DNA from: Rhodococcus sp. (in: high G+C Gram-positive bacteria)
GTDB taxonomy: Bacteria; Actinomycetota; Actinomycetes; Mycobacteriales; Mycobacteriaceae
Reading direction: 5' to 3'
Length of the DNA: 45,843 nucleotides
Assembly: GCA_012514505.1 (NCBI GenBank)
Contig: JAAZAD010000016.1
Span: forward strand, 1 to 45,843
The notes under the pieces were generated by a model, which searched no databases, had not been told where the DNA came from, and was given only the letters and a program-made list of their open reading frames with translations. The position numbers and the translations under genes were made by a program. Every line of letters starts with the position of its first letter. Position 1 is the first letter of the stretch. Positions 15,701 through 32,005 of this stretch are shown in pieces.

Positions 15701-16193
15701 CGAGGAGGCTCATGCCGTACCCGTCCATCACGCTGTGGTGATAGCGCTGGAACCAGAAGAGGGTCTCGTCCGCTGTACGCAGGAGTGCCTGCCGGAAGAG
15801 TGGTTCGTCCGCATCGAGGCTCACGCTCGTCCGCATGTCCTGATCCATCCACCGGTTGGCGGCCGCGAGCGGATCGACGTCCCTGCGGAGATCGATGACC
15901 GTCAAATCCCAGGCGTCCGGTGCAGTTGGGGTCTGGACGAGGGTCCGGTCGTCGGCGAACGAGAACCGAACGTGCAGTGCTTCTGCGTGCTCGATGGTGG
16001 CGCGGATGGCGGCGTGCAGGCGATCGAGATCGACCGGTCCGGAAATCTCGGCTACCACCGACAGGTTGTATGCCGAACCTTCGCCACGCACCTGCTGACC
16101 CGTCCAGATCTCGGACTGCGCTGCGGTGACCGGCAAGGACACCGGCGTCCCCGAGAGTGCGGGTACAGCTGAGGACGAGTGGTCCGGCGACAT
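1..16193 (-). CDS. Hydroxamate-siderophore nonribosomal peptide synthetase, 3' end outside window
   Basis: The frame opens at ATG 16193 and stays open to the left edge wherever I translated it (5397 codons, no stop reached), so the protein is C-terminally cut. Domain order is C1-A1-T1-E1, C2-A2-T2-E2, C3-A3-T3, C4-A4-T4, C5 (partial). Phosphopantetheine serines are Ser1009, Ser2511, Ser4036 and Ser5104. The pocket codes read fhOrn, Ser-like, hOrn and unassigned. From memory, this architecture and these substrates match the tetrapeptide hydroxamate synthetases of rhequichelin (RhbC) and erythrochelin (EtcD); orthology is inferred, not tested. EtcD ends in a terminal C domain proposed to release a diketopiperazine, so C5 may be the last domain. 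It is cytosolic and would need phosphopantetheinylation, an ornithine N-hydroxylase and probably an MbtH protein, none of which is in the window. An IdeR-like box lies 61 bases upstream. Confidence 0.93.
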   Translation of the reverse strand, partial: MSPDHSSSAVPALSGTPVSLPVTAAQSEIWTGQQVRGEGSAYNLSVVAEISGPVDLDRLHAAIRATIEHAEALHVRFSFADDRTLVQTPTAPDAWDLTVIDLRRDVDPLAAANRWMDQDMRTSVSLDADEPLFRQALLRTADETLFWFQRYHHSVMDGYGMSLLVDDVVKRYEGDGTSSAGSWSVARLVELDRDYRESARFVSDREFWLSQVMDGAEPPRLLPATTGEGGAPELATVEIGGDDADRLYTFAAESGIRRTRLPMAVLVAYLHRITGQRDLTVSLPMTARVGREMRSIPGMASTILPLRVQVDPSTTVVELAKRVDATLVSALRHGRYRGEDLARDVRGIDPDRQVFGPGVNSMMFETPLTLGEATTSVHNSATGPVDDLDFTVRGGQDGVPIRIDLRAPYGMRDELLGHKQRLEHFFAQFISAPSSAIASLDPLTVQERHRLMVEFNDTETDQVRRTVDELFAASVAATPDAEALVAGNTRLTYRELGDRVAQLAHEFQARGLGPEGVVAIGLPRSPEMVVGILAAVAAGGAFVPLDPSWPTDRRESVLVESGAALILTGPAGLEDDERAVVADLANWAYSHRPTEFPPVSVHGGSLAYTIFTSGSTGRPKGAMIRHEAVCARLLWQRDEILHFGPEDASLFKAPLAFDISVNEILLPLISGGRLIIAEPDGERDAQYLLDLIAGERVTFVYLVSSMLDVLLDLARGTEALDRLKHVWCGGEVLTPGLFERFRNQLSTTLYHGYGPAEATIGVSHVIYREDAKRIATSIGVPNPNTQLYVLDTNLQPVPIGHGGELYAGGFLLGRGYTGAPGLTASRFVANPFASDGSRLYRTGDVARWTADGTLDFLGRVDNQVKIRGMRLELEDVEAGLSSHPDVRHSAVTVRQTPNGGKYLAGYVVAETAAVETESGLTAEALRAWASTKLPEYMVPTAFVIMGEFPLTPNGKVDRRALPEPDLATAGDGVAPRTDDEALVCQLMADVLGVDSIGVTDDFFALGGDSIVAIQLVNHARERGVSITPREVFSLRTAEAIAKAQQGRAAVLVDEHDVAIGDVDPSPIIARTQANLGSAIAGFHQSVLLRVPADFTLEQARVALSAVVERHDALRARLARDDRWTLTVPSVSPLPDVVHEIATEHIDDDVVRRASTEAVGGLDPDHGAMVQAVLIRVDGQPGRLLVVGHHLVVDGVSWRVIVEDVARAGLAAMAGAEPELAPVGTSLRRWTELVNEQVAAGAFDDELPYWQEVSAAPPVQLGSRELQPTVDTVSTAESLELTLPADVSAPLLSSVPAAFHGRVNDILLTALAGAMRRWRGADGPLLVDLEGHGREEELGRAPGAPGIDLSRTVGWFTTVFPVALDAGSGELTSPSDFGGAVKRVKEQLRRIPNAGFGYGALRYLAGRDDLAVAPQVLFNYLGRVARSDETDWLPVDMSGAGDPSMPLGHAMTLDVIALEGSGGATLRTTLTWAPGVLERAEIEAFAREWTAALTTLAKTVEFGGATPSDFPLVPVTQSDLESFDSASIDSNVVDVLPLTPLQEGIYFQSVFDKAGTDPYVVQQVVELTGPVDATALHRGLQAVVDRHAALRTGMQELADGTVVQVVHDEVSVPLDTVDFRGVADIDADIRQVLHAERERGFDFGRPPLLRYTLARVDESKYVLLQSIHHIVADGWSVPVMLRELMAHYGVAEGQSPLPPATPYGSYLSWLASRDREASHEAWRTAVADAGDPIELPSGSPDPEADGEVRVELLREDTAALTAAARTRGLTLSTLVHGVWGLLLGRMTGADDVVFGSTVSGRGGDLPGIEGMVGLFINTVPARIRFAATEKVSDVLARWQDEQSLLLEHQYLGLPELRRVAGLKDLFETLVVFENYPIGDGGIADPTGTVHVTGIDFDENPAYPLTLIVVPGDSLTFDLKYDVTRVDSETAHRVANGLIAYLTAVAEDMDRTVAEVRLARLTHGAAGADEVPATTVKALLEEQALRTPNELAVLFEGERLDYAQLHRDSNRLAHLLIERGVTPESIVAIALPRSTSLIVAILAVVKAGGAYLPLDTGYPADRLAYMLGDAAPVCVLTDASVRLPATDTPTIHVDRTALQDYSADPVDVDLRPDHPVYVIYTSGSTGRPKGVVVPHQGVVNRLVWGQSVSPLGTSDRVLQKTPSSFDVSVPEFFGPFTAGAALVVAKPDGHKDPEYLSGLIRSESVTRTHFVPSMLEAFLTEPTAEQCTSLRVINCSGEALPVHVARRVAELLPDVRVDNMYGPTEASVEVTRHASVQHIDATAPSVPIGSAAYRTGLYVLDRYLQPVPQGSPGELYLAGPQLARGYLGRPAVTSDRFVADPFGPAGARMYRTGDLARWNDDDVLEYLGRSDFQVKLRGFRIELGEIEAQLAQCPGVLQAAALVRSDRPGHQQLVGYVVGTPNFDDVRARLGAALPEFMVPTAFVTMEELPLSPSGKLDRKALPAPELPRSADRQTVATTVDGAGAALARHYAEILGLDSVSTADDFFALGGDSILAIRLVNLARRDGITITPRQIFEQRTPEALARLVGDVPAETIAVPVESGVGELLPLPVVHRLSEWSGGKDRFNQSVLVRTPAMTHETISATVDAVVAHHDGLRQRLTRHAHGVWSLEIAEQASVPVRRVETGGLDEQALRDLVATESEAATERLDPDAGIMLSAVWFDAGAGEQGRLLLVAHHLVVDGVSWQVLLEDLAMAAVATANGETPALDPVVTPLRAYSRIVTLQAQESARIAELERWTAVTAPGAELVPAASGHAVVGSGARRTFTVDAATTAAVLTAVPAMVNADVTDVLLAALRLSVTEWFTSKRRRGDLLVDLERHGREELAAGVDLSRTVGWFTSVAPVRLTDGDEAVDVLKNVKERLRGAPDGGIGYGMLRYLNARTTGALSNGSESQVLFNYLGRMPAVGDGPWTPAPESDALSTDPDVDLGGPYRLVINAVCEDGGDGPEMRAVFAWSDADLTAADVDALGEGWITALRELAAAAGSHVGPSMLTPSDVPLTALSQTDIDRIVNDSPAGVDTVLPLSPLQEGLYFQATLDDGADIYTAQFSLDFGHRLDVDRLHAALRTLQRRNPMLRAGFVSSGLPEPVQFIGAGLDVPVVEHDLRHLDEDEREARAAELGALDRATPFDLTAPPLWRAMLLRLTDHHDRLVVNRQFLLWDGWSNGLVVSALLGLYESGGDDTGYAEPEGTFEDYLHWLASRDQDAAEAAWSEALSGLDEPTLLANPVRGEPQLPQRRDRVLSEDLSEKLRTVARGAGVTFNAVLNSALAVTIATATGRKDLVFGTTVAGRPPEVPGIDAVAGMFLNTVPVRMTLRADETVADLMRRTQTDRLSLGQYDYLGLASIQRSSPHRQLFDVLYVLQNFVDENQVSALNAAHDISGGDSIDHTHYPLTVVVTPGASVKVKFEFHPESIDADRVEAMLEHFLGLLEEWSQSVEGLVSRAYVPALPEVEDTDNALPESTIADLFGDAALLQPDETALVFGERSMTYAELDGDINRLARLLLERGAGPEKIVALGLPRTIEMVVALFAVLRTGSAYLPLELDHPEERLVGMIEDARPVVLLTTSEVASTLAAAPVDAVLLDTEDWRSLPAATLSPDELGAFAPGTPRRLEHPAYVIYTSGSTGKPKGVVTAYHGLTNMQFNHREAIFEPVIRSTGGRRLRIAHTVSFAFDMSWEELLWLVEGHEVHICDENLRRDAEALVAYCDEHAVDVVNVTPTYAQHLIEEGLLDEGNGRHRPPLVLLGGEAVSDRVWNSLRDTDGTCGYNLYGPTEYTINTLGAGTDDSATPTVGKPIWNTQAYVLDSWLRPVPDGVPGELYISGIGLARGYLNRFALTSERFVADPFAPSTRMYRTGDLVRRGVDGNLDFLGRTDDQVKIRGHRIELGEVASVLESLDDVRQAAVVADKGPGGFDRLVAYTVPVRGSRVSGLANHSQALRGLLPDYMVPAAIIEIDSLPMTVNGKLDVKALPPASSVLGNGSGEQARAENATEKALAELFSTTLDIPVPGVTENFFDLGGHSLLATRLISRARAALSAELVMRDLFEAPTVRELAARIDSRTASTRPALTAGSRPDYLPLSPAQQRLWLIQEMEGRSAAYNFPIVFRLDYALDPSLFAQALGDVVDRHESLRTVFTVRGGTPVQTILDNAAPPINVVTTDDTGLAEVLRGAVGRPFDLENEIPVRATIVQLHGGEQVLAIVLHHIATDEWSDRPFTHDLMTAYAARAAGTAPNWSPLAVQYADYTLWQQELLGDPNTAASVAGKQLDYWASALRGIPDELPLPTDRTRPPRPTYSGGAVHVVLGDDTTESLREIARSSGTSMFMVLHAASAALLHRLGAGDDLPLGAPVAGRSEPGLDELVGFFVNTVVLRTDVSGDPTFAQLLDRVRDVDLAAFSNADIPFESVVEKLNPSRTAARNPLFQVMVGYHSRQDESAGGRGFTPLSVDEHTAKFDLVFNYTEYLADENGPGRVELRLEYSADLFDRTTAETIASRQANLLDAVAADTRVRVGDVDVFLAGERDLVLHTFNDTDCEVPEETFHQAFHRNVLATPDAIAVVDSNGESTYAELSEQAERIAGLLYRRGVRAEDVVGLAIPRSTEFVAAVLAVLRLGAAYLPLDLSHPRERISFMLEDSAAKVLLSTTTETQRIDDVPELVRILLDDPSTVAERNSESAQSFPPEPDGLDHAAYVIYTSGSTGKPKGAVLTHDGIPSLVATAQERMRLAAGSVVMQFASVGFDVAVFELAMALCTGSRLVIVPDEARVAGPELTDFMAHHQVSHAILPPSLMAALPHGCLVPEGCTVLVGTETVPPELIGKWASRLNLLAAYGLTEVTVNNTLWQAEPVWNSVVPIGIPDPNEQVYILDARLAPVPPGIAGELYIAGRGLARGYLGRPDLTVSRFVANPFGTARMYRTGDRARWRRDGNIDFLGRVDEQVKVRGFRIELGEVIAALGAHPKVKQSAAVVDREGDLVRLVGYVTATEAVDIDAAASGDIDAAASGDLDPVEIREHVAGSLPDYMVPSMVIVLDGALPLTPNGKLDRKALPAPNWADLVGEGTPQTETQVEIAAVVAEILYLPGVGIHDDFFDLGGHSMASMRLVARIREQFGVSIGIRDVFDSPTVAGLADLVDAGGDGGRPALVPATRPETLPLSGPQRTHWNRYRASGGDVQADHALALTLTDRVNPEALAQALDDVSSRHEPLRTVYVEVDGHVVAQEAVRPVLELEDVGDGDLHRRVFELAQRTTNPSEQPPLRLCLVSGSDGTQVLLAVMQYIAVDEWSVVPLLGDLLGAYASRVEGGEPAWDALPVTYPDYVLWSNESLGDPNDPGSEHARQLDYWRGRLTDLPARLELPSSDVAERRTEIVSVDIDAELHRGIDAVASASGTS
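770..3925 (-). other. NRPS module 4 (C-A-T), substrate unassigned (code DVFILGAVN)
   Basis: Boundaries are approximate. C4 begins YLPLSPAQQRLW and has HHIATDEWS (His4217), an active variant with Glu for the usual Gly that is common in actinobacterial C domains. A4 has TSGSTGKPKG, FDVAVFE, AILPPS, TVLVGTE and AAYGLTEVTVN, giving the pocket D-V-F-I-L-G-A-V-N. I do not recognise this code securely. By analogy with rhequichelin and erythrochelin the slot would hold an N5-acylated N5-hydroxyornithine. T4 has LGGHSM with Ser5104. A duplicated eight-residue segment lies in the C-terminal part of A4. Confidence 0.7.
1159..1206 (-). repeat. 24-bp in-frame tandem duplication inside A4
   Basis: Two adjacent copies with period 24 share cctgatgcggcagcatctatgtc on the plus strand without mismatch. 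They encode DIDAAASG twice in the C-terminal subdomain of A4. Exact copies suggest a recent slippage event. The insertion keeps the frame and lies in a region that is probably a surface loop. Confidence 0.9.
3960..7090 (-). other. NRPS module 3 (C-A-T), predicted L-N5-hydroxyornithine; C domain lacks catalytic His
   Basis: Boundaries are approximate. C3 begins at VLPLSPLQEGLYFQ. Where HHxxxDG is expected it reads QFLLWDGW (Gln3172, Phe3173), so both histidines are missing while DG is kept. The A3 pocket (A4 motif FDMSWEE, then VVNVTPTY, LVLLGGEA, YNLYGPTEYTIN) reads D-M-E-N-L-G-L-I-N, identical to the hydroxyornithine code I know from coelichelin module 3. T3 has LGGHSL with Ser4036. There is no epimerase, so an L residue is expected. 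In erythrochelin and coelichelin the preceding residue is joined to the side-chain N-hydroxylamine of hOrn, which may explain the unusual C domain. Confidence 0.8.
7150..11650 (-). other. NRPS module 2 (C-A-T-E), predicted D-serine or similar
   Basis: Boundaries are approximate. C2 starts at VLPLTPLQEG and has an intact HHIVADGWS motif at His1667/His1668. The A2 pocket reads D-V-P-H-N-S-M-V-E. The nearest code I know is serine (DVWHLSLID type), differing at 239 (Pro for Trp), 299, 322 and 331, so Ser is likely but a related hydroxy residue such as Thr cannot be excluded. T2 has ALGGDS with Ser2511. E2 has HHLVVDGVSW at His2694, so a D residue is expected. The order D-fhOrn then D-hydroxy amino acid parallels coelichelin (D-allo-Thr) and erythrochelin (D-Ser). 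Confidence 0.7.
11660..16193 (-). other. NRPS module 1 (C-A-T-E), predicted D-N5-formyl-N5-hydroxyornithine
   Basis: Boundaries are approximate. C1 (about residues 10-440) has an intact HHSVMDGYG motif at His152/His153. A1 (about 465-962) has TSGSTGRPKG and an A4 motif FDISVNE. Aligned by eye to GrsA PheA positions 235/236/239/278/299/301/322/330/331, its pocket reads D-I-N-Y-W-G-G-I-G. This is the code I know for formyl-hydroxyornithine in coelichelin module 1. T1 carries LGGDS with Ser1009. E1 (about 1045-1512) has HHLVVDG at His1188/His1189, so the residue should be epimerised to D. A C domain before a first module is odd for an unacylated start: it may cap or acylate the first residue, or accept a donor from another protein. 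Confidence 0.82.
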
Positions 16194-16253
16194 GTGAATC
16201 CGATCGTGAGTGGCGACGCTGGTTGGGCAGGCAAACCTTCTCCGCGCAGGAGT

Positions 16254-20910: not shown

Positions 20911-22425
20911 TCAAGTCCGGTCGGCGACCTCGGCCGCGCGGGCAGTCAAGGCGTCAGCGACGGCGCTGAATTCGGCGAGCGCTGCGGTGAGATCCTCGAC
21001 GATCTCCTGGGCGATAATCTCCGGCGGTACCCCGTCGTCGGCATCGGTCAGCGACGGGTCCTTGAGCCACGTGATGTCGAGGTTAGCCTTGTCCCGCGCG
21101 ATCAGTTCGTCGTACGAATAGGGCTTGAATCGTTCGGACTCGACGCGGGCCGAAAGGTCGTCGGCGTTGAAAGCCTCGATGAACGGGGCAAGATGCTCGT
21201 CGCGCAGGGGACGTTGCTTCAGGGTGAAATGCTCGCCGGTGCGGAAGTCGTAGACCCAGAGTTTGTCGGTCCATGGCTGGCTGGGGCGCGCCTGCTTGCG
21301 GTCGAAAAACAGCACATTGGCTTTGACGCCGCCCGCGTAGAAGATGCCAGTCGGCAGTCGTAGCAAGGTGTGGACGTCGTATTCCTTGAGAAGGCGACGG
21401 CGGATGGTCTCGCCGGCTCCGCCTTCGAACAACACATTATCTGGGACGACGACTGCTGCGCGGCCGTCGATCGCGAGGAGCGATGCGATGTGCTGGACGA
21501 AATTGAGCTGCTTGTTAGTGGTGGTGACCCAGAAGTCCTGCCGGTTGTAAGCCACGTCTTCACGCTCGGCCCGGCCGTCGTCTCCGACCACAGTGATCGA
21601 TGACTTCTTTCCGAACGGTGGGTTCGCCAGCACCATCGACGCCGGGCGTGAGGATTTGGTGGCCAGTGCATCGTGAACGTCAATGACCGGGTCACCGGTG
21701 GCCTGTCCGATGCCATGCAAGAACATGTTCATCGTCGCCAGACGAGCGGTGCCGTCGACCAGTTCGACGCCACGAACGGTGTGCCCCTCACTCAGTGCCG
21801 TTCGCTGTTCCGGGGTGGTGGAGTCGCCATGGTGCGTGTTGAGGTATTCGATTGCGGCGAGCAAGAAGCCGCCGGTCCCGCAAGCCGGATCGACGATGGT
21901 GTCAGCCGGGGTCGGACGCATCACGTTCACCATGGCGTGTATCAAGGTGCGCGGGGTGAAGTATTGCCCAGCGCCGGACTTCACGTCCGAGGCTGACTTT
22001 TGCAGCAAGCCCTCGTAGGCGTCGCCATTGAGGTCGCCACCGATGCTCGACCAGTTCTCGGAGCCGATCAAATCGACGACCAGCTTGCGCAGCAGTGCCG
22101 GTTCCTGGATTCGATTCTGTGCCTTCCGGAAGACCACACCGAGGTTGGTGGGCTCTTTACCTAGCTCACTGAGGACCCGCCGGTACTCCTCCTCGAGTTC
22201 GGCACCTTTGAGCTGGGTCAACCTGTCCCAGGAGATGTCCAGGCTCTCCGGCAGTACCTGCACCGGGTTGAAGAGGTTCTGCTGCCGTTCGTCCGCCATC
22301 TTCAAGAACAGCAGCAGACTGAGCTGCTCGACGTAGTCGATAGCAGAGACCCCGGCGTCACGGAGGACGTCGCAGTAGCTCCAGAGTTTATCGACCAGGC
22401 GACGAAGTTCGGCGGAATTACTCAC
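20911..22425 (-). CDS. hsdM: Type I restriction-modification DNA methyltransferase subunit HsdM
   Basis: This 504-residue protein starts at GTG 22425. An N-terminal helical HsdM_N domain (about 1-135) precedes the N6-adenine methylase core: GQYFTPR, S-adenosylmethionine motif I DPACGTGGF (about residues 178-186), and catalytic motif IV NPPFG near 266. The C-terminal helices (about 420-504) would contact HsdS. With HsdS it forms the M2S1 modification enzyme. It is separated from hsdS by about 2.5 kb holding the kinase, the HIRAN gene and an opposite-strand gene, so it probably has its own promoter. No strong ribosome site precedes the start. Confidence 0.93.
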   Translation of the reverse strand: MSNSAELRRLVDKLWSYCDVLRDAGVSAIDYVEQLSLLLFLKMADERQQNLFNPVQVLPESLDISWDRLTQLKGAELEEEYRRVLSELGKEPTNLGVVFRKAQNRIQEPALLRKLVVDLIGSENWSSIGGDLNGDAYEGLLQKSASDVKSGAGQYFTPRTLIHAMVNVMRPTPADTIVDPACGTGGFLLAAIEYLNTHHGDSTTPEQRTALSEGHTVRGVELVDGTARLATMNMFLHGIGQATGDPVIDVHDALATKSSRPASMVLANPPFGKKSSITVVGDDGRAEREDVAYNRQDFWVTTTNKQLNFVQHIASLLAIDGRAAVVVPDNVLFEGGAGETIRRRLLKEYDVHTLLRLPTGIFYAGGVKANVLFFDRKQARPSQPWTDKLWVYDFRTGEHFTLKQRPLRDEHLAPFIEAFNADDLSARVESERFKPYSYDELIARDKANLDITWLKDPSLTDADDGVPPEIIAQEIVEDLTAALAEFSAVADALTARAAEVADRT

Positions 22426-22490: not shown

Positions 22491-22565
22491 TCGGTGCGCC
22501 AATCTATGGTGGGCGGGACTTGAAGGTTGGCTGGCAACGAGGCTACGACACGGATCGGACAGGAC

Positions 22566-23255
22566 ATGACGATGGATGAAGTGCCGCGTGGAATCGAACC
22601 AGGTGCGACGATGACCACGGCCATGATCAGCCCTCTGGTCGGAGGATTGATTCGGACGTGGACGCACGATGGGACGGCGTTGTGGAGCGTCAACGACCCT
22701 GAGGGGCTGAGTGAGGTCATAGGGCGCGGTCTGATCGCCCGCACTCCGGTTCCCGATAGCCGCTTTCGCGAGGCCGCGTTCCTGAATGTGGACGCTGGAA
22801 CGCTGATAGTCCAGAACCGATACCCGACGGGAACGGCTGAGGGTTCGGCGCAGGTGGAGGCCAGCATCTTCCAGCTGCGGCCGGCAAACAGGCCTGAGCG
22901 CGCTCCATGGATGGAACTGAAAGACTTCCTCAATGACGCAGCGAAGTCTGCTGTTGATCGCGGTGATTTCTGGGTTGCCGAGCTGGGCGGATGGGATGCA
23001 CCGAAGGAGCCTTACTGCCTCTTTGCAGTCCTCGACCAGGGTGGCGGACCTGTGTCGGTAATCGAGGCCGCACCCGCGCCACGAGGAACCGGGTTCTGGC
23101 CGGAGGTGCCGGAGAATCAGCCCGGCAGCACCGTCACCGCACCCGCCGATGAGGGCTCGTTGCCCGCGGTAGGCGTCTTCGGTGGCGTTGCTATCCAATC
23201 GTGGGGTGTGGACCCGTGGGATATCGCGCTGACCTTCGGGAAGCTTGGAGAATAG
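22566..23255 (+). CDS. Hypothetical protein inside the restriction locus
   Basis: Started at ATG 22566 (MTMDEVPRG, preceded by GGACAGG), the protein has 229 residues; the frame is open further upstream. It is acidic, rich in Trp, Gly and Pro, with no signal peptide or membrane segment. I recognise no domain. It runs opposite to the surrounding hsd genes: divergent from hsdM and convergent with the HIRAN gene (24-base gap). Codon third positions are mostly G/C, which supports this frame over the overlapping minus-strand frames. Its place between hsdM and the rest of the operon suggests an inserted cargo gene or a locus-specific accessory. Confidence 0.6.
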   Translation: MTMDEVPRGIEPGATMTTAMISPLVGGLIRTWTHDGTALWSVNDPEGLSEVIGRGLIARTPVPDSRFREAAFLNVDAGTLIVQNRYPTGTAEGSAQVEASIFQLRPANRPERAPWMELKDFLNDAAKSAVDRGDFWVAELGGWDAPKEPYCLFAVLDQGGGPVSVIEAAPAPRGTGFWPEVPENQPGSTVTAPADEGSLPAVGVFGGVAIQSWGVDPWDIALTFGKLGE

Positions 23256-23279: not shown

Positions 23280-24014
23280 TCACCGTCGCGAAGTGTCGGC
23301 CTCGATCCGGCACAGCAAACGCAGGTGCGGATGGGCGTCGGGGCTAACTCGTTCCGCAATGACCACGAAGGTGTTCGAACGCGACTGAAGGTCTTCGAGG
23401 TCGGTGAGTAGCCAGTCGGGTACGTATCCCACGGGCTCCCCGCTGGCCACGCAGATCAGCTGCGCTCGTGCGTTCACGGGGTTGTCCGGTTCGGCCCGAA
23501 GCTGGAGGTGTTGACCCGGTTGGATGGTGGACAGTCGCGCCGCGGAGCCCTCGACGTAGCGGACCCCGGAGGCGAGGAAGCGGCTGGTCACGGTGCCGTC
23601 CGGGTCGGCAGTCAAGTCGTCCACCAAATGGAAGGTGTCGGTTGCTCGGGGGCCGCCGGTCCGGGCGAGTAGCTCCATCGGGGTATCTACGTCAGCAGTG
23701 TCGATGCCGAGCGATTGCAAATACTCGGGAAAAGATTCGCGCTTGCGCGACATCAGTCGGTTGACGAAGAAGGCCGGCAGGCCAGCCGAAACATAGCTCC
23801 GATCGAGATCGGGGAACTGGGTGAGTGGGTGGAAATCGGTGGCAGATCGTGCGTCATCGGTGTACTCGAACCCGTACCGACCATCGACAAGTTCGGACAG
23901 AGCCCCGACTCGGACAAACTGCCGGGACTTGGGGTTTTGCCAGATGAGGAACAGCTTTCGGGCCACCCCGATATCGGAGGTGGACGACACCCTCGACGGC
24001 GCGTTAGTCACCAT
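23280..24014 (-). CDS. HipA N-terminal-like plus HIRAN-like domain protein, partner of the kinase
   Basis: The protein has 244 residues. Residues of about 18-130 (YGFEYTDDA, HPLTQFPDLDRSYVSAGLP, FFVNRLMSRKRESFPEYLQ) resemble the N-terminal subdomain of HipA kinases. Residues of about 160-235 (QHLQLRAEPDNPVNARAQLI, GEPVGYVPDWL) fit a HIRAN domain, a fold found in DNA-processing enzymes that can bind DNA 3' ends. Its ATG 24014 overlaps the kinase stop by 11 bases, so the two are translationally coupled. I infer a split HipA-type pair in which this protein supplies the missing N-domain and DNA sensing. Domain calls are by eye. Confidence 0.68.
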   Translation of the reverse strand: MVTNAPSRVSSTSDIGVARKLFLIWQNPKSRQFVRVGALSELVDGRYGFEYTDDARSATDFHPLTQFPDLDRSYVSAGLPAFFVNRLMSRKRESFPEYLQSLGIDTADVDTPMELLARTGGPRATDTFHLVDDLTADPDGTVTSRFLASGVRYVEGSAARLSTIQPGQHLQLRAEPDNPVNARAQLICVASGEPVGYVPDWLLTDLEDLQSRSNTFVVIAERVSPDAHPHLRLLCRIEADTSRR

Positions 24015-24912
24015 GGATGATCCTTTCCCGATTGAGGCACAGTAGCTGTTTCCTGAAGGTACGCCCAGCGTCCGACAGATATTCCGGCGAAACTGCGTCG
24101 ATCACCGATTCTATGTCGTCGGTCGAGATGCTTGCCAGTTTCTCGAGCCAGTAGGCGCGCACCTCGTTGCCTGCGAGGTGCAATGCAGCGTCGGCAAGGC
24201 TGACGAGGCTTGGTTTGTCGCAGAAGTGGTGGCTCCGACCCCGCTTGGCCCATCGTGCCAAGCGCACTTCGTCGGCAGCGAGTGTCCGAACCTCATCCTC
24301 CGGCACTTGGAAGCCGAGCGCATTGCCGTGGTCGAAGGACGGTGCGAGGCGAAGCTCGCTACCGTGCTCGATTGCCGCCCAGTTCTCATGATGCCGATCT
24401 CGGCCGGCAACCCAAGCGTCGAGCATCAGGTACCCGGCCCACGCATCGAAGGCGGTGCGAATGGGTTGGCTAGACGACGCGGGCGCCGCCACCCCATCGA
24501 GTGCAGTTCGAACTGCCTCGACCGTATAGCGCGGGTTTTTTCGAGCAATCTGGGAGTCGTAATCCGGGTCGACGCCAGCCAGCAGTTCGTTTCCGTGAAT
24601 CAGGCGATCACCTGAGGGCGAGACCGACCGTGACAGAACGCCGCGCCGACCGTTGTGCACCGCGGGAATGGCAATGGCCGTTGGTATCGACAGCAGTGTG
24701 GCCAGTTCGTGTACGGCCCACTCGACCCAGTCCTCACCCATCACGCGGTCATCGTGAACCCTCGCGTATTTGAACAAGTACCGATAACCGTCAGGCGCCT
24801 CGACCCAAAATTTCTCCTTGGTGCCCAGTGGCTCGTCAGCGATCTGGAAGTCCGCGTCCGAAGATGACAGTACCCACTTGTCGACTGTCTCAACTCGCCA
24901 TCGGACACTCAT
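24004..24912 (-). CDS. HipA-like protein kinase lacking the N-terminal domain
   Basis: The protein has 302 residues. Kinase features of the HipA/CtkA type are visible: a candidate ATP-binding lysine in YLFKYAR (Lys48), the catalytic DxHxxN motif in GRDRHHENW (Asp172, Asn177), and a metal-binding Asp in APSFDHG (Asp194). It begins directly with the kinase lobe, so the usual HipA N-subdomain is absent and appears on the next gene. It lies 43 bases after the hsdS stop and overlaps the HIRAN gene. HipA kinases phosphorylate protein targets such as aminoacyl-tRNA synthetases; the target here is unknown. No HipB-like helix-turn-helix antitoxin is adjacent. No clear ribosome site precedes the ATG. 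Confidence 0.78.
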   Translation of the reverse strand: MSVRWRVETVDKWVLSSSDADFQIADEPLGTKEKFWVEAPDGYRYLFKYARVHDDRVMGEDWVEWAVHELATLLSIPTAIAIPAVHNGRRGVLSRSVSPSGDRLIHGNELLAGVDPDYDSQIARKNPRYTVEAVRTALDGVAAPASSSQPIRTAFDAWAGYLMLDAWVAGRDRHHENWAAIEHGSELRLAPSFDHGNALGFQVPEDEVRTLAADEVRLARWAKRGRSHHFCDKPSLVSLADAALHLAGNEVRAYWLEKLASISTDDIESVIDAVSPEYLSDAGRTFRKQLLCLNRERIIHGD

Positions 24913-24955: not shown

Positions 24956-26260
24956 TCACGGTGCCGCGACGGCCTTCCTGCGACGGCCTGTGGGCGCCTT
25001 CGCCGCTGTCCGGAGCTTCGCCAGCGCGGCTTCTGCGGGTTCGTCGGTAGGGTCCTGGTCGACGAGTTCCCCGTTGAAGGCCGCACGCAGAAGTGAGCGG
25101 CGAAGAGCGGCGGACCGTATCGACGCCTTATCGATCGCGATCATGACGTGGGTGTGGGCATCTTCGAATTCTTCGATCTCGGCAACAACGTCACGCTGGT
25201 CGCCGATGGTAAGGACGGGCAGCTCGATCCGCTGGACCTTCTGCTTATTCAGGGCGGGCTGAACACCGCCAGCACCCGAGTTGCGGTTGTGTTCGTAGCG
25301 GCTGCGGAGGGAGTGGTAAACAAACTCAGGAAGGAACTTCGACGAGTCTATTCGAATTGCCGCACAGTTCTGATTGTGGGCGGCTTCGATGTCCAGAATC
25401 GCGACCTGGCCGCGCGTCTTACCTTCGCCGATCATCGCGATCATTACAGTTCCGGGAGGGTGGATGCGCGTCCTCGCGTTCCCGGCAGCCTCGCGTGAAA
25501 TACGTTCCCGCGTCGTCGCAATGCGATTGAACGCGACCTCGCCGCTAGAGACCCACGGAAGGTCTCCGTTCCACAGTTTGGGGTTCGCTCGAGATGGCGT
25601 TGTCCCAACGAAGACTTCACATTCGTCGCCGATTGTGCTGGAGGCGATAAGTTCTCTGCTGCGGAGGGCAGCAGTTAGGTGCTGGGCACGCATACGGCGC
25701 ATCTTCACGCGCGCTTCCTCTAGGACCCGTTCCACTGCGTCCAGGCGGGAGAGATGGTCCTCGAGGACCTCGACTATTCGGTGCTGTTCGGGGAGTGGGG
25801 GGAGCGGAATGGGCACCTCGAGGATCTCGGCAGGGCGTACGGCCGGGTAGCTGACGCCGCGCTGCTTTGCGATCACCTCGTCGAGGAACGCTTGGCGGGT
25901 CACCGTGAAGTATAGAAATCGGCTGTCGATAGCCTTAGATGGGCGCAAAACACAGAATCCTGTGGATGCGATTTCGCCGTCGAACAACTCGGGTAGCCAC
26001 GCGATCTTGCGAAGGTATGGGCGCACGGTGGAGAACACTGTGTCGCCTGCTCGCACAACCTGACGCGCCCGCGAGGGCGCTGAAGTGATCTCGACCGTCG
26101 GCACCTCCCCGAGACGTTGAGTGTCTCCATCGACTGCTGAGATATCGATGTACTTGAAAGTCTGCCTGCTGAACCCGGCGGGATCGGCCTTGTCCACGGG
26201 ACGGACGACTTCCCGCAGCGTCGTCCAGGCCCAACCGTCAGGAAGTGTTCGATCGGTCAC
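24956..26260 (-). CDS. hsdS: Type I restriction-modification specificity subunit HsdS
   Basis: This 434-residue protein has two target-recognition domains (about 1-150 and 205-365), each followed by a conserved helical spacer (LPPLPEQHRIVEVLEDHLSR; TIGDQRDVVAEIEEFEDA). This is the normal full-length two-TRD plan for a bipartite DNA site. Its GTG at 26260 overlaps the hsdR stop (GTGA). It sets the DNA sequence recognised by the HsdM and HsdR complexes. The C-terminal tail is Ala/Lys/Arg-rich. The target sequence cannot be read from the protein. Confidence 0.93.
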   Translation of the reverse strand: MTDRTLPDGWAWTTLREVVRPVDKADPAGFSRQTFKYIDISAVDGDTQRLGEVPTVEITSAPSRARQVVRAGDTVFSTVRPYLRKIAWLPELFDGEIASTGFCVLRPSKAIDSRFLYFTVTRQAFLDEVIAKQRGVSYPAVRPAEILEVPIPLPPLPEQHRIVEVLEDHLSRLDAVERVLEEARVKMRRMRAQHLTAALRSRELIASSTIGDECEVFVGTTPSRANPKLWNGDLPWVSSGEVAFNRIATTRERISREAAGNARTRIHPPGTVMIAMIGEGKTRGQVAILDIEAAHNQNCAAIRIDSSKFLPEFVYHSLRSRYEHNRNSGAGGVQPALNKQKVQRIELPVLTIGDQRDVVAEIEEFEDAHTHVMIAIDKASIRSAALRRSLLRAAFNGELVDQDPTDEPAEAALAKLRTAAKAPTGRRRKAVAAP

Positions 26261-29200
26261 GCGATCAGCTCCGTGTTCAACTCATTCAACAACTGCAATG
26301 CAGCGTCTCTGGTCGTGATCTTGAAGTCCGCTGCAAAGCGAGCGCTGCCGCCGAGATCGCTGAACGGAATCCGGTCGAGGTCAGTGATCTCAACAGAGAC
26401 ATTGGTTTTCACCACGTCCACGATGGTGCCGAGCCATCGCTGCTGCTGATCGGTGTAGTCCACGCCTCGCCGCTCTTGCTCGGTAAGCCAGCTTGCAAGT
26501 CGATTTTCCACCTCCGAGGCGAAAGGCCTGATCTTCAAATCGGTTGCGGCACCATTATCCTTCGCGAGCTCGAAGCGCAGAATGGTCACCAGGTCCGGCA
26601 CTTCCACTTTGTGCTCCGGATCGGCCAGCTCGCCAAGCTCGGCGTAGGCACGCCACAGTGTTTCGATGCTTCCGATCGCCGGAACGCGGGCGACCTGCTC
26701 GGCGAGGGCCTTGAGTTCCTTGTACGTCGGCCTGCCCGGTGCGCTGCCGTGAAGTATCTGCAGCACGGTGATTTCGTCGCGATGCTCGGCCAGATACTCG
26801 CGGAACGAACGCACGGGTTCGTGGGTTCCGTTGCCGTAGGCGACACGCTCGGTGCCGAGAAGAGTGTCCGCGTTCACCTGATCGAAGATCAGGTCCTTCT
26901 TCCTCCGGGTGTCGAGAATCGCCTTGCGTAGCTCGGGGTTGCCGGAGAGTGGGGCGATGCCTTCGTGAATCTGCTTAGCCACCTCGGCTTTGCCGCCGCG
27001 CTCCTCGGCCTCGAGTATTGCGTCGGTGTCGCTGGCCTCCGCGATCTGCTTGGCGATCTCACGCAACCCGACGCCGTCAGCAACCTCGGCCAACTCAGCA
27101 GACTCCGAGGGCTCGAGCTGCGAGGCGAGCTTTGCCAGGCGCACCGCCAGGCTCGACGCTTCGTCGGGCGTGATGGTGAGGGTGCCGGCCTTCTGTAGCA
27201 GCTTCTCGAGAGATACCGACGGATCACGTTCCATCGGTGTCGCGTCAACCAACGGGGAGTCGGTCACACCCACTGCGTCGACAATGACAAACCGATCCTT
27301 CTTGAAACCCTTCGGCGTGTCCGGAGTGAGCGCTGCGTAGTCGTCTGCGCCGATGATGCGCGAGCCCCTGCCCTTCATCTGCTCGAAGTACACGGCAGAG
27401 CGCACCGAGCGCATAAAGAAGACACATTCGATCGCGCGCACATCCGTTCCGGTGGCGATCATGTCCACCGTCACCGCGACGCGCAGCGACGGGCTGTTGC
27501 GGAAATCCTGTAATAGCCGCTTGGGGTCCCTACCCTCACTCTTCGACTTGTACGTGATCTTGGCGGCAAAGTCGGCGCCCTCGTTGAACACCTCGCGCAC
27601 CTGCTCGACGATCACATCAGCGTGCGCGTCGGTCTTGGCGAAGATCAATGTCTTCGGCACCGCGGAGCGATTCGGGAAGATCTCTGTGTACAGGCGATCC
27701 CGGAACGTGGTGAGCACCTTCCGAATCTGGTCCTCACTGATCACGTCACGGCCGATGGCACTACCCGAGTAGGCGTAGTCCTCGTCCAGTTCGAGGTAAC
27801 GCTGCGCTCGGGTTCGTCTGTCTCGAACCGGAACAACGGTCTTCGCGTCGATGGTCGCACCCTGTGCGGTGATCTCGGTGCGGATCTTGTACACGTCGAA
27901 AGGGACGTTCACCCCGTCGATCACCGACTCCTCGTAGGTGTATTCACTGACCAGATTCTGGTCGAAGAAGCCGAGAGTCTGCTTGGTCGGTGTGGCCGTG
28001 AGCCCGATGATCGGCGCATCGAAGTAATCGAGCACGGCTCGCCAGCGTCCGTAGATGGAACGGTGGCACTCGTCGATGATGATCAGGTCGAACGATTCCG
28101 GCGGCACGTTCGGGTTGTAGACCGCATCGACCGGCGACTCCGGCTCGATCAGGTCTCCGTCCACGTCGTCATCGACGTCTGCGTCAGGCAGATCCTTACC
28201 CTGGAGCATCAGAAACAGGCGCTGGATGGTGGAGATCGCGACGTTCGTCGAACCGAGTACTGCGTGTCCGGCGAGACGCTGCACGTTGTAGATGTCGCCG
28301 AATCGTCGACCGTCGTCGGTCGGCACGAAATTGTCGAACTCCGACTGGGCCTGCTCGCCGAGGTTGTTGCGGTCGACGAGAAACAACACTCGAGAGGCGC
28401 GCGCGTGCTTGATCAGGCGATAGCTCGATGTGACGGCGGTGAACGTTTTGCCGGCGCCGGTGGCCATCTGAACCAATCCGCGTGGGCGATTCTCGGTCAA
28501 CGACTTCTCGATGCCTTCGATCGCCTGGATCTGGTTGGGTCGCAAACCTGCCGGATCGAGCGCCGGAAGGTGCTGAAGGCGGGCGCGGAATGTCGGAGCA
28601 TCGGGTCGCTCGTCGGCCTGCTGCATCCATGTTCGGACCGTCTCCGGCCGCGCGAATGTGAAAACCTCCCGAGAACGCGGCTTCGGGTCGAGTCTGTTGG
28701 TGAATCGAGTCTCCGCGCCTGTGGACTCGTACAGGAAGGGAAGCGGCTCGTCGCGACGCCAGGCCGCGAGTTGATGTTCCTTGCGCAGCCCCGCCGAGTA
28801 CTTCGCGGTCTGCTGCTCGACCCCGATCAGTGCGGTGCCCTCACGCTTGGCCTCGATGACGCCGACGATCTTGCCGTCGACGTACAGGATGTAGTCGGCA
28901 AAGCCTGTCGCAAGGTGAAATTCGCGGACCGCGACTCCCACGCCGGCAAGGGTATTGACGTCGGTGTAGTCCTGAACTTTCCAACCGGCCGCGGCCAGTT
29001 GGGCATCGATTTCGCGGCGTGCCTGCACCTCATTGAGGGGAGGTCGACGACGGAATGCTTTGGAGAACGCGCTGCCCGTCGCGGCCGACACTTTGACGGG
29101 TTCAGTAGAAGCGAGTGCGCCGTTGCCTTGAAGCTCGGCGAGCTGCTTCTCGAGGGCGGCCAACCGACTAGCGACCGACTGTTCGCGATCCCGAGTCGCT

Positions 29201-29817
29201 GCCAGTTCCGCCTCAGCTGCCCGGCGTGCCTCGTTCTCCGCGATCTGCGCAGTCTTAGCGGCGCCGAGCACCGTCAACGCCTCGGTCAGCTCGGTCTGCG
29301 ATTCGGCGAGCTTACGGTTGATCGACTCGAGCTGCGCCTGATCCTCGGCCTCGACGGCCCGTGGCGGCGACGGCGGCTGTGGCGCGATGAAGGTACGCGG
29401 CTGTTGATCGTCGGACAGCGCGAGTCGGAGCAGATTGCCCAGCTGCCAGCACTGCTCGACCGACTTCAGAGCAGAATTGACGTTGAACAGGTGACTGTGG
29501 GTTGCCTTGTTACCGACCGTGCGGATGTTGTGCAGCGCAGCAGCCGCCGTCGAGGTGAGCACGCCGGCACCTTCGAGCGCCTGGATACGCTCGATCTGCT
29601 TCGACCCGTCGAATCGGGTGGCGCTGCGCCGAATCAGCTGTTCGGCGAGGACCTCACCGAACTGCCGGCACTTGATGAGCGCGCCGTTGGGATCCGTGTA
29701 GACACCGGATTCGGCTCCTGCCCCATAGATGGTGAGCAGCGGCTCGATCGACGCGAGGGAGCCGAAATTCACCGATTCGCGGGCAGCGGCGAGCAGTCTC
29801 GGATCTACGGTCGGCAT
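26257..29817 (-). CDS. hsdR: Type I restriction endonuclease/translocase subunit HsdR
   Basis: The protein has 1186 residues from ATG 29817, which is preceded by GGGGGA; a longer frame to 29892 has no such support. Order: an N-terminal DUF4145-like domain (about 1-110), a coiled coil (about 145-235), a PD-(D/E)xK nuclease (GFADYIL near 310, VIEAKREG near 320), and an SF2 motor with Walker A ATGAGKT near 455, DECHR near 580 and motif III TATPTKQ. A C-terminal helical EcoEI-type domain should bind the methylase. All key motifs look intact, so an active ATP-driven restriction enzyme is expected. It is the first gene of hsdR-hsdS-kinase-HIRAN, the reverse of the common hsdM-hsdS-hsdR order. Confidence 0.93.
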   Translation of the reverse strand: MPTVDPRLLAAARESVNFGSLASIEPLLTIYGAGAESGVYTDPNGALIKCRQFGEVLAEQLIRRSATRFDGSKQIERIQALEGAGVLTSTAAAALHNIRTVGNKATHSHLFNVNSALKSVEQCWQLGNLLRLALSDDQQPRTFIAPQPPSPPRAVEAEDQAQLESINRKLAESQTELTEALTVLGAAKTAQIAENEARRAAEAELAATRDREQSVASRLAALEKQLAELQGNGALASTEPVKVSAATGSAFSKAFRRRPPLNEVQARREIDAQLAAAGWKVQDYTDVNTLAGVGVAVREFHLATGFADYILYVDGKIVGVIEAKREGTALIGVEQQTAKYSAGLRKEHQLAAWRRDEPLPFLYESTGAETRFTNRLDPKPRSREVFTFARPETVRTWMQQADERPDAPTFRARLQHLPALDPAGLRPNQIQAIEGIEKSLTENRPRGLVQMATGAGKTFTAVTSSYRLIKHARASRVLFLVDRNNLGEQAQSEFDNFVPTDDGRRFGDIYNVQRLAGHAVLGSTNVAISTIQRLFLMLQGKDLPDADVDDDVDGDLIEPESPVDAVYNPNVPPESFDLIIIDECHRSIYGRWRAVLDYFDAPIIGLTATPTKQTLGFFDQNLVSEYTYEESVIDGVNVPFDVYKIRTEITAQGATIDAKTVVPVRDRRTRAQRYLELDEDYAYSGSAIGRDVISEDQIRKVLTTFRDRLYTEIFPNRSAVPKTLIFAKTDAHADVIVEQVREVFNEGADFAAKITYKSKSEGRDPKRLLQDFRNSPSLRVAVTVDMIATGTDVRAIECVFFMRSVRSAVYFEQMKGRGSRIIGADDYAALTPDTPKGFKKDRFVIVDAVGVTDSPLVDATPMERDPSVSLEKLLQKAGTLTITPDEASSLAVRLAKLASQLEPSESAELAEVADGVGLREIAKQIAEASDTDAILEAEERGGKAEVAKQIHEGIAPLSGNPELRKAILDTRRKKDLIFDQVNADTLLGTERVAYGNGTHEPVRSFREYLAEHRDEITVLQILHGSAPGRPTYKELKALAEQVARVPAIGSIETLWRAYAELGELADPEHKVEVPDLVTILRFELAKDNGAATDLKIRPFASEVENRLASWLTEQERRGVDYTDQQQRWLGTIVDVVKTNVSVEITDLDRIPFSDLGGSARFAADFKITTRDAALQLLNELNTELIA

Positions 29818-29978
29818 ACGGATCCCCCATGTTGACGGTTCGTCCGTCGATCCTAGTGGTATGACGGCGTGGCGCCGCCCGACTCGCTGCACAACTAGAC
29901 GTCACCAACGGGATTCGGAAGCCGTGCCTGCTGTTAGCCTGCATCGTCCGAAACCGAAGCACCCCGTTAGGATCGCCT

Positions 29979-30227
29979 GTGAAGAACCGCTCGTTCGAGA
30001 CGAATCTGTTCGGATACGGAGCGGCAATATCCGTCTTCGGGCTTGTGTTCTGGCTGACGGACTGGATCATCCCGAAAGACGGCGACCCCTTCGCGATCAA
30101 CCTCGGCGGCCAGGCTGTATTGCTGATAGGGCTCCTCCTGCTGTCCGTCGCCACAGCCCTGCACATGCGAAAGTCACGCCGCGCTGACGACGAGAACTTG
30201 CGCATCGCGCACAGCTCAGAAAATTAA
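29979..30227 (+). CDS. Small two-helix membrane protein
   Basis: This 82-residue protein starts at GTG 29979 after TTAGGA. Two hydrophobic segments (about 10-31 and 43-64) flank a short acidic loop. The C-terminus is charged (RKSRRADDE) and probably cytosolic. No family is recognised. Its TAA overlaps the stop codon of the convergent ABC exporter gene, and it diverges from hsdR. Confidence 0.65.
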   Translation: MKNRSFETNLFGYGAAISVFGLVFWLTDWIIPKDGDPFAINLGGQAVLLIGLLLLSVATALHMRKSRRADDENLRIAHSSEN

Positions 30228-32005
30228 CGGCTGCCCAGCACATTCCCACCGACCGACGTCCCCGACCAGGCGGCCCACAACTGGGCGTATCGGCCACCGG
30301 TCGTGACCAATTCGTCGTGTGGGCCCTGTTCCAGGATTCGTCCGTGTTCGAGCACTACAACCCGGTCGGCCGACGCTGCCTGGGTCAGCCGGTGCGCGAC
30401 AACGAGTGTGGTTCGTCCTCGGGTGGCCGCTTCTGCCGACCACTCCAGATCGCGGGCTCCGGCACTACCTGCCTCGGCGGTTGCCTCGTCCAGCACGGCC
30501 ACTGCGGGATCCGCCAGAACCAATCGCGCCAGGGCCAACTGCTGGGCCTGGGCCGCGGTCAGGTCGTGCCCACCTTCGCCGACGACGGTGTGCATGCCGT
30601 CATCGAGAGCTTCGACCCAATCCAACGCACCGACGCAGGTCAGTGCTGCCGTGATGTCTTTGTCCGTGCAGTTCGGGGCGGCCAGGCGGAGGTCGTCCGA
30701 GAGCGGCCCGGCGAACACGTGGACTTCCTGACTCACGATCGCAACGTGACGCCGCAGGTCGCCCAGTTCTGCGAGCGGAACCCCTCCGATGCGAACGACA
30801 CCCGAGGTGGGTTCGATCGATCCGGCCGCAATCGCGGCGACCGTGGTCTTTCCGGCACCCGTCGAACCCACCAACGCCACACGCTCACCGGCGGCGATGT
30901 GCAGGTTCACGGCATGGACCACTTCGTGCTCGCCGTCGTAGGTATGCCGAAGGTCGATCAATTCCACATCCCTACCGGGCGCGCGAGGGTTCGAACTCTG
31001 CGTGTTCGACACCGGCCGGGACTCGTCGGGGATGTCGATGACTCCGACCAATCGTGCGAGGCTCGCGCCCGCCGACTGCACTTCGTCGAACGTGTACATG
31101 AGCATGCCGATGGGGTTGAACAATCGGTGGAACAGCAGTGCCGCGGCGGTCGTCGCCCCCACGGTCACGATGTCGTTCTTCACGAGGAAGAATCCGACCA
31201 CCAGAATCGCCGTCAACCCGACGAATTCTGCCCGGTTTCCCCGGCCTGCCAGTCTCGTGAACAGGCTGAACACCCCGACTGCCAGGTCTCGCGCCTTGCC
31301 GGACGCCTGGTCGATCCTGGCCAGATGCTCGGTCTCGAGTCCGTAGGCCCGCACGGTGCGCACACCCTGCATACTGCTGATGAGGGCCTGCGAACGCTCA
31401 CCCATCGCCACGCGTTCGGCCGCATAGATCGGCGCGGAACGTGGCAGGTACCAGCGCAATGCCAACACGTACATCGGCAAGGCAACCATTCCGGCCAGGC
31501 CGAGGCGCCAGTCGATTCCGAGCATGGCGGACATGCTCAGCACCACGAGCAGCACCGCAGCCACCAGGTTGGGCACGACGTCGGCGACGGCCTTCCCGAT
31601 CACCGCGACGTCGTCCCCGACACGGGCCAGGAGATCGCCCTTACCTACCCGTTCGACCGTGCCGATGGGAAGCCGTAACGCGCGGTCGACTGTGCGCTCG
31701 CGGATCTGCGCGAGCATCGTTTCTCCGAGACGCCGGATCAGATAGGACGCAAATCCGGTACACAGGCCGCCTGCCACTGCCGCCGCTGCGATGACGATCA
31801 GCATCCACACGACGCTGGACGGTTCGACACCCTCCCGAACCCTGTCGACGAAGATCCCGAAGACGTAGACCGGTACCAACGCGAGCGCCGCCGCAACAGC
31901 AGCGACGACCAACGTCGTACCGGTGGCGAGCCGCCGCTTCCACAACTCGCCCCTCAGCCAGGCCCAGGTGTCGGCAGCCCCCGCAACGGGCAGAATTTCA
32001 CTCAT
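30224..32005 (-). CDS. ABC exporter half-transporter with intact nucleotide-binding motifs
   Basis: This 593-residue protein has a six-helix type I exporter domain (about 1-320) then an ATPase domain. Walker A (GSTGAGKTT), Walker B with catalytic Glu (VAVLDEAT) and the H-loop (VVAHRL) are intact, but the signature is LTAAQ instead of LSGGQ. It overlaps the upstream half-transporter by ATGA and must pair with it: its Walker motifs with the partner's LSGGQ make the one active ATP site. A drug or siderophore export role is likely. Siderophore export is favoured by the nearby NRPS and the precedent of ExiT beside exochelin genes, but no iron box supports it directly. Confidence 0.86.
   Translation of the reverse strand: MSEILPVAGAADTWAWLRGELWKRRLATGTTLVVAAVAAALALVPVYVFGIFVDRVREGVEPSSVVWMLIVIAAAAVAGGLCTGFASYLIRRLGETMLAQIRERTVDRALRLPIGTVERVGKGDLLARVGDDVAVIGKAVADVVPNLVAAVLLVVLSMSAMLGIDWRLGLAGMVALPMYVLALRWYLPRSAPIYAAERVAMGERSQALISSMQGVRTVRAYGLETEHLARIDQASGKARDLAVGVFSLFTRLAGRGNRAEFVGLTAILVVGFFLVKNDIVTVGATTAAALLFHRLFNPIGMLMYTFDEVQSAGASLARLVGVIDIPDESRPVSNTQSSNPRAPGRDVELIDLRHTYDGEHEVVHAVNLHIAAGERVALVGSTGAGKTTVAAIAAGSIEPTSGVVRIGGVPLAELGDLRRHVAIVSQEVHVFAGPLSDDLRLAAPNCTDKDITAALTCVGALDWVEALDDGMHTVVGEGGHDLTAAQAQQLALARLVLADPAVAVLDEATAEAGSAGARDLEWSAEAATRGRTTLVVAHRLTQAASADRVVVLEHGRILEQGPHDELVTTGGRYAQLWAAWSGTSVGGNVLGSR

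Follow-up and report, generated by a model that had tools for sequence, protein, structure and literature searches.

In a contig of 45,843 nucleotides from Rhodococcus sp. (hereafter, the window), the genes for a short HipA-type kinase (hipI) and a HIRAN-containing partner (hipN) lie within a type I restriction operon (Table 1). The window spans an entire contig, and the draft assembly from which it comes has 609 contigs, with 96.93% completeness and 6.93% contamination. The gene order, read along the minus strand, is hsdR, hsdS, kinase, partner, an ORF on the opposite strand, and hsdM. Just 43 bases separate hsdS from the kinase gene, which overlaps the partner gene by 11 bases in a different frame. 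A kinase search found one copy in this genome. Two ABC exporter genes (30224-33744, minus strand) are located upstream of hsdR.

Table 1. The type I restriction operon of the window and the gene pair within it
Gene	Position	Strand	Product	Supporting matches
hsdM	20911..22425	-	Type I methylase subunit, 504 aa	N6_Mtase 3.2e-65; HsdM_N 7e-11
ORF in the hipN-hsdM gap	22527..23255	+	242 aa	No match in Pfam
hipN	23280..24014	-	HipS-like (residues 18-133) and HIRAN (residues 139-241), 244 aa; predicted antitoxin/sensor	PADLOC PDC-M03B 4e-76; HIRAN 6.4e-8; AF2 and structural match
hipI	24004..24912	-	Predicted toxin, 302 aa; Ser/Thr kinase of the HipA type, lacking N-subdomain-1	PADLOC PDC-M03A 3.6e-102
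hsdS	24956..26260	-	Type I specificity subunit, 434 aa	Methylase_S 2.1e-22
hsdR	26257..29892	-	Type I restriction subunit with a DUF4145 N-terminus, 1211 aa	ResIII 6.1e-35; EcoEI_R_C 6.4e-23

The catalytic residues of HipI (D172, N177, and D194) are intact. They lie in the catalytic motif (D172RHHEN177) and at the Mg-binding position (D194), and a Gly-rich loop (LGTKEK) is at residues 29-34. In the structural model, residues 1-302 of HipI align to residues 116-437 of HipA, and N-subdomain-1 is absent. The length of HipI also fits the published range for kinases with a short core (279-321 amino acids for HipG, HipI, HipJ, and HipM). HipN, which is encoded downstream of the kinase, has an N-terminal HipS-like domain and a C-terminal HIRAN domain, as indicated by Pfam, the AF2 fold, and a structural match. 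Specifically, a HipS structure matches residues 18-133 of HipN, and the C-terminal half has the HIRAN fold. Single-sequence searches of PDB with HipI and HipN gave nothing useful; profile searches gave usable matches. Pfam found no HTH or HipB-type protein among the nine window proteins that were scanned.

An earlier note, made from the sequence of this DNA, had described a HipA-like kinase that lacks the N-domain but retains Asp172, Asn177, and Asp194, and that overlaps its partner gene by 11 bases. The ORFs and the alignment to HipA bear this out. The note had also described the partner as a HipA N-domain-like part fused to HIRAN, and it placed the pair directly after hsdS with no HipB. These points agree with the domain profiles (which recovered HIRAN), the AF2 fold, the HipS match, the short gap after hsdS, and the scan for HTH domains.

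HipBST systems have an HTH protein (HipB) in the operon, HipBA systems have the N-domain within the kinase chain and HipB upstream, and HipL is a single chain made up of kinase, HipS, and HIRAN. None of these descriptions fits the window, where the domains are divided between two ORFs in different frames. What the window does have is adjacent matches to both components of the PADLOC candidate PDC-M03 (Table 1). The same pair is the hipIN module of Gerdes, Baerentsen and Brodersen (2021), who named it, viewed HipN as a putative antitoxin, and called the fused form HipL (PMC8262856, available portions). So the arrangement is already described, and the earlier note's view of it as a candidate for an undescribed defence module is not supported.

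The window belongs to a clade (SH-aLRT 100) with a Rhodococcus plasmid (L102), Gordonia (L022), Mycolicibacter (L023), and Mycobacterium (L024). The order R-S-I-N-M (that is, hsdR-hsdS-hipI-hipN-hsdM) is common to all five. Between the window and the Rhodococcus plasmid, HsdR, HipI, HipN, and HsdM are 88, 71, 75, and 94% identical; between L023 and L024, they are 81, 76, 75, and 89% identical. The identities of these four proteins mostly rank alike, with the exception of HipN, whose best pair is L102 and L022 (77%). The identity of HsdS varies within the clade. On the plasmid, the cassette is followed on the other strand by genes for a McrBC component and an AAA ATPase (L102:13091-16415).

The gap between hipN and hsdM seems to collect insertions. 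It is only 21-64 bases in L023, L024, and L102, and the window and L022 have different inserted genes there. In Gordonia, the gap is occupied by a gene for a YhgA-like Transposase_31 protein (L022:11626-12684). In the window, the 242-amino-acid ORF has no counterpart among 80 hipIN loci. It has one plasmid homologue (40.8% identity), from Tsukamurella, amid genes for F420-dependent oxidoreductases. Because hsdM directly trails hipN in the three relatives, this ORF is probably a later insertion and not part of the hipIN module.

Linkage of HipI to HipN and a proposed role

We scanned one genome per species with the kinase, which gave 384 relatives, and kept 80 loci. The conserved kinase motifs were required, which biases this set towards intact kinases. 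In all 80 loci, a HipN-like gene lies directly 3' of the kinase on the same strand (in L033, this was seen on a second look). L033, from Rathayibacter, has two HipN-like genes (10875-11594 and 15474-16244) and one kinase match. Among viral contigs, HipN is directly 3' of the kinase in 72 of the 75 loci that were fetched. In two of the other viral loci, the kinase is shortened and HipN is 320 or 409 bases further along; one lacks HipN. Many of the viral loci are near-identical: 82 HipN proteins from viruses, phages, and plasmids represent 52 distinct sequences. Linkage of the two genes is thus nearly obligate.

A second scan started from HipN and covered 396 genomes of the phylum, 20 of which matched. 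They include 10 full-length HipN (counting the window's), and most of the others have HIRAN alone. A full kinase accompanies seven of the full-length HipN, an incomplete or split kinase accompanies two, and one has no kinase (L011, where 1.5 kb upstream was examined). Overall, full-length HipN occurs with an incomplete or split kinase in L029, L031, L006, L007, and the plasmid L107 (which has IS110 in between), and the kinase occurs without HipN once, in L130. This asymmetry fits with the kinase alone being harmful, although errors in assembly or sequencing may account for some of the broken kinases. Another variant is a HipN with about 170 extra amino acids at its C terminus (L088:10895-12139). 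The extension has a weak match, under the cut-off, to pPIWI_RE_REase (3.2e-5), and we view the protein as a possible HipN-nuclease fusion.

We propose that hipIN is probably a toxin-antitoxin module inside the type I operon that acts as a back-up defence. By analogy with HipS and HipT, and with HipA kinases that are paired with DUF3037 proteins, HipN would hold HipI, and infection would free the kinase. From the domains and the genomic associations, we infer the inhibition, the toxicity, the target, and the trigger as follows. HipI would be the toxin, and its Ser/Thr kinase activity would probably halt growth through phosphorylation of an essential factor. As with HipA and HipT, an aminoacyl-tRNA synthetase is a plausible target. 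HipN would be the antitoxin, with its HipS-like half docked at the position of the HipA N-subdomain, where it would block the ATP-binding loop. This would parallel the inhibition of HipT by HipS, which either inserts as a wedge in the Gly-rich loop or prevents ATP from binding, according to the available parts of PMC10627512 and PMC9325769. The HIRAN half would be the sensor. If infection or failed restriction alters the state of its ligand, HipI would be released and would stop the infected cell before phage progeny form.

The HIRAN pocket of HipN

In a HMMER alignment, the HIRAN domain of HipN is matched to that of HLTF across the NPYD and VGHLKK segments. Along with the HLTF-type fold, the window HipN has the conserved asparagine (N178, aligned with N91 of HLTF) and R152/Y153, which presumably correspond to R71/Y72 of HLTF. 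But V180 takes the place of Y93, N181 that of D94, and D200 that of K113. D94 and K113 of HLTF contact the DNA end. Of 47 HipN from non-actinobacterial bacteria, 43 combine D94 with a basic residue (R or K) at K113, as do 41 of the 52 distinct sequences from viruses, phages, and plasmids. In contrast, none of 27 actinobacterial HipN, including the window's, has both, and just two of these have D94. The pocket does not track with the type I setting: among 10 type I rows of the alignment, seven have D at D94 and seven have R at K113.

These differences bear on the trigger. Gerdes and colleagues proposed that HIRAN recognizes phage DNA ends, which activates the kinase and leads to abortive infection (PMC8262856, available portions). 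The earlier note similarly suggested that HIRAN could sense DNA ends that arise from HsdR or phage replication, and control the kinase; in this reading, binding of such ends to HipN of the window would free HipI. The HIRAN fold, the retention of N178 and R152/Y153, and the pocket pair in most HipN from other bacteria and from mobile elements fit with this idea, and DNA-end sensing is plausible for the hipIN family. For the actinobacterial lineage, it is doubtful, as the pocket residues of the window protein are changed and the pair is missing from all 27 sequences. In the available text of PMC8262856, Gerdes and colleagues made a similar remark: most HipN retain the DNA-binding motifs, with actinobacterial HipN as the exception. 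Overall, we consider it fairly unlikely that DNA ends are the signal in the window. HIRAN of this lineage probably does not simply reproduce the 3'-end binding of HLTF as its trigger.

Another idea is that HIRAN of HipN detects the products of DNA degradation, for example deoxydinucleotides. Y72 and Y93 of HLTF border a HIRAN cavity for one single-stranded dinucleotide (PMC4666394, as available in part). And about one-third of 93 deoxydinucleotide-specific nucleases (diDNases) are encoded beside genes for HipA and HIRAN proteins, with some near type I systems (PMC11706625, as available in part). Because the cavity fits one dinucleotide and diDNases are found beside HipA and HIRAN genes, the ligand might be deoxydinucleotides, or very short 3' ends, from restriction or phage nucleases. 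These would cause HipI to be freed (or held), and the diDNase would erase the signal, much as ring nucleases do with cyclic nucleotides. In proteins like the window's, this ligand may then have been replaced, for example by a phage protein or a modified end. The cavity and the diDNase neighborhood are not brought together in the accessible discussion of PMC11706625, nor, apparently, in the matches listed by our literature search.

We found one example that fits. On a Nocardiopsis plasmid, a diDNase gene (L189:6702-7322, minus strand; identified by its similarity to PDB 9f7d, 2.9e-25) is convergent with hipIN. Unlike the 27 aligned actinobacterial HipN, the HipN of L189 has D and R at the positions equivalent to D94 and K113. 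Apart from L189, the diDNase was found neither in the window nor in any of the loci that were examined. It was present in 1 of 396 genomes of the phylum, 4 of 392 genomes of one genus, and 2 of 327 genomes of one order (the match from the phylum is one of the four from the genus), and none of these six distinct loci is beside hipIN. There was no match in phages or viral contigs. The evidence for this reading is one locus and the published count of diDNases, and we think that it is unlikely to be correct.

Genomic neighborhoods of hipIN

In at least 19 of the 80 loci, the pair lies among or next to the genes of a type I, type ISP, DISARM, or BREX system. Twelve of these are type I (L022-L024, L049, L055, L056, L066, L070, L077, L091, L092, and L098), and in four others, a type ISP gene adjoins the pair or is one gene away (L035, L039, L053, and L065). 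In two loci from the same genome, hipIN lies between drmMI and drmA of DISARM (L037:3569-13020 and L050:5264-15220), and in one locus from Thermoanaerobacterales, it lies between brxD and brxHI of BREX (L097:332-5991). Some of these loci are kin (L056 and L066; L053 and L065; L022-L024). The other 61 loci, which have no assignment to a defence system here, are partly annotated, many on short contigs, and several of their scanned neighbors have no defence match.

When we compared neighbors to Pfam, Methylase_S was recovered upstream of the pair (8 of 60 genes) and HSDR_N downstream of it (7 of 52 genes). (We scanned 60 of 74 first upstream neighbors, and 51 of 69 first downstream neighbors as well as one second neighbor; most of those that we chose to omit were short, on the opposite strand, or near-repeats.) Furthermore, among 45 loci on long contigs, from 44 genomes, 8 have HsdS within 10 kb. 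These were read by hand from coordinates; all eight fit an open frame of the locus exactly, and the doubtful places in seven other loci do not. With random placement in the same genomes, 0.58 such loci would be expected, and none of 200,000 simulations reached 8, although random placement is a weak null and the kinship of L022-L024 implies fewer independent events. The link of the pair to defence loci, which the earlier note proposed to survey, is strong. In the kinase tree, the type I label requires 5 changes, of which at least 3 are forced by well-supported branches (L105 and L108 are long-branch rows whose placement is unsure). The position within the operon also varies: the order is R-S-IN-M in the window's clade and R-IN-S-M in L077, and planctomycetes and Bipolaricaulota have M-S-IN-R or S-IN-R.

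The pair is also carried by prophages and phages. It adjoins an integrase gene in two Vibrio tailless phage records that we opened (two further records match) and in the Clostridioides difficile phage phiCDKH02. Two P2-like viral contigs (L124 and L140) carry it between the genes for the replication endonuclease and the portal protein. This site is a hotspot of diversity and anti-phage genes, which holds old and tin in P2 (Rousset 2022; PMC9122126, available portions). A fused HipL of 519 amino acids (L106:4104-5663) is at the same hotspot in E. coli phage 899 and in one E. coli prophage that we opened, and copies with at least 99% identity are present in 61 of 5426 E. coli genomes.

We considered whether hipIN is linked in general to a DEDD exonuclease, and rejected this. 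The 3'-5' exonuclease gene beside E. coli HipL is Rv2179c-like; it was found in the five HipL loci (L106 and L108-L111) and in L115, but not around hipIN in general. In 29 actinobacterial genomes, PF01612 gave six places within the ranges of the loci, and none of these fits an open frame there. The sigma-70 pattern was not found, versus 4.3 occurrences expected by chance.

A defence role for hipIN is well supported by context, although the neighborhood alone is not proof of function, as defence genes cluster anyway. The earlier note had viewed the pair as an abortive back-up to restriction. The links to defence loci and prophages make the back-up likely, while the DNA-end step is doubtful here.

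We also considered that hipIN might be in restriction operons by chance, as a passenger of gene-dense islands with no functional link to restriction. The pair does occur without hsd genes in many loci and phages, and unrelated genes have been inserted beside it, namely the 242-amino-acid ORF in the window and the Transposase_31 gene in L022. But chance would hardly explain why the R-S-I-N-M order is kept in the window and the four named genera with mostly congruent divergence, or why the pair has become associated with type I systems at least three times independently, at different positions in the operon. So we view this as improbable.

Alternatively, hipIN might mainly stabilize the restriction cassette or a plasmid by killing cells that lose it, with defence as a secondary role. 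The toxin-antitoxin make-up, the carriage on plasmids, and the presence of the cassette in several genera are consistent with addiction. However, it leaves the HIRAN half of HipN unexplained, and it does not readily account for the temperate phages that carry hipIN next to integrases or at the P2 hotspot, or for its presence in DISARM and BREX loci. We consider it distinctly unlikely. Finally, co-inheritance with hsdR and hsdM could suggest that the kinase regulates the restriction enzyme by phosphorylating Hsd subunits, but this is very improbable, as the pair lacks adjacent hsd genes in prophages, DISARM loci, and BREX loci.

The window is a well-preserved example of a candidate defence module in a conserved operon that is also found on a Rhodococcus plasmid. 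There, restriction and a suicide kinase could be compared within one operon. A result for E. coli HipL, which is a convenient test case at the P2 hotspot, or for any one hipIN, would speak for a widespread family (with type I, type ISP, DISARM, or BREX systems, or at the P2 hotspot). And since the pocket is changed in 27 of 27 actinobacterial HipN and kept in the diDNase-linked L189, the question of the HIRAN ligand becomes a direct comparison.

Relation to known systems

Both of the window proteins match PADLOC's PDC-M03A and PDC-M03B. PDC-M03 is a bare name for a phage-defence candidate, and we found no test of it in the open literature. The candidate was reportedly derived from an embedding analysis. 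The hipIN module of Gerdes 2021 likewise has a short kinase gene, then a gene with HipS-like and HIRAN domains, and no HipB. But the word "restriction" is absent from the main text of that paper, as available (PMC8262856), whereas the window copy sits within a type I operon. In the open literature, where subscription papers and preprints are mostly outside our coverage, we did not find experiments on any hipIN. The HipL protein of E. coli P2-like phages has the identical three domains in the identical order, but as one polypeptide of 519 amino acids instead of two genes.

Two other kinds of systems are also related. HipBST is also a split HipA, with a HipS-like inhibitor and a short kinase, but it has an HTH gene (hipB), HipS precedes HipT, and there is no HIRAN domain (PMC10627512 and PMC9325769, available portions). 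HipAD, also known as DS-6 or PDC-M66, has a HipA-type kinase and a partner other than HipB. For this combination of a HipA kinase with DUF3037, phage defence depends on the kinase, and losing the partner is toxic (PMC13092281 and PMC12548924, available portions). As described there, the partner carries DUF3037, while in hipIN it carries HipS-HIRAN.
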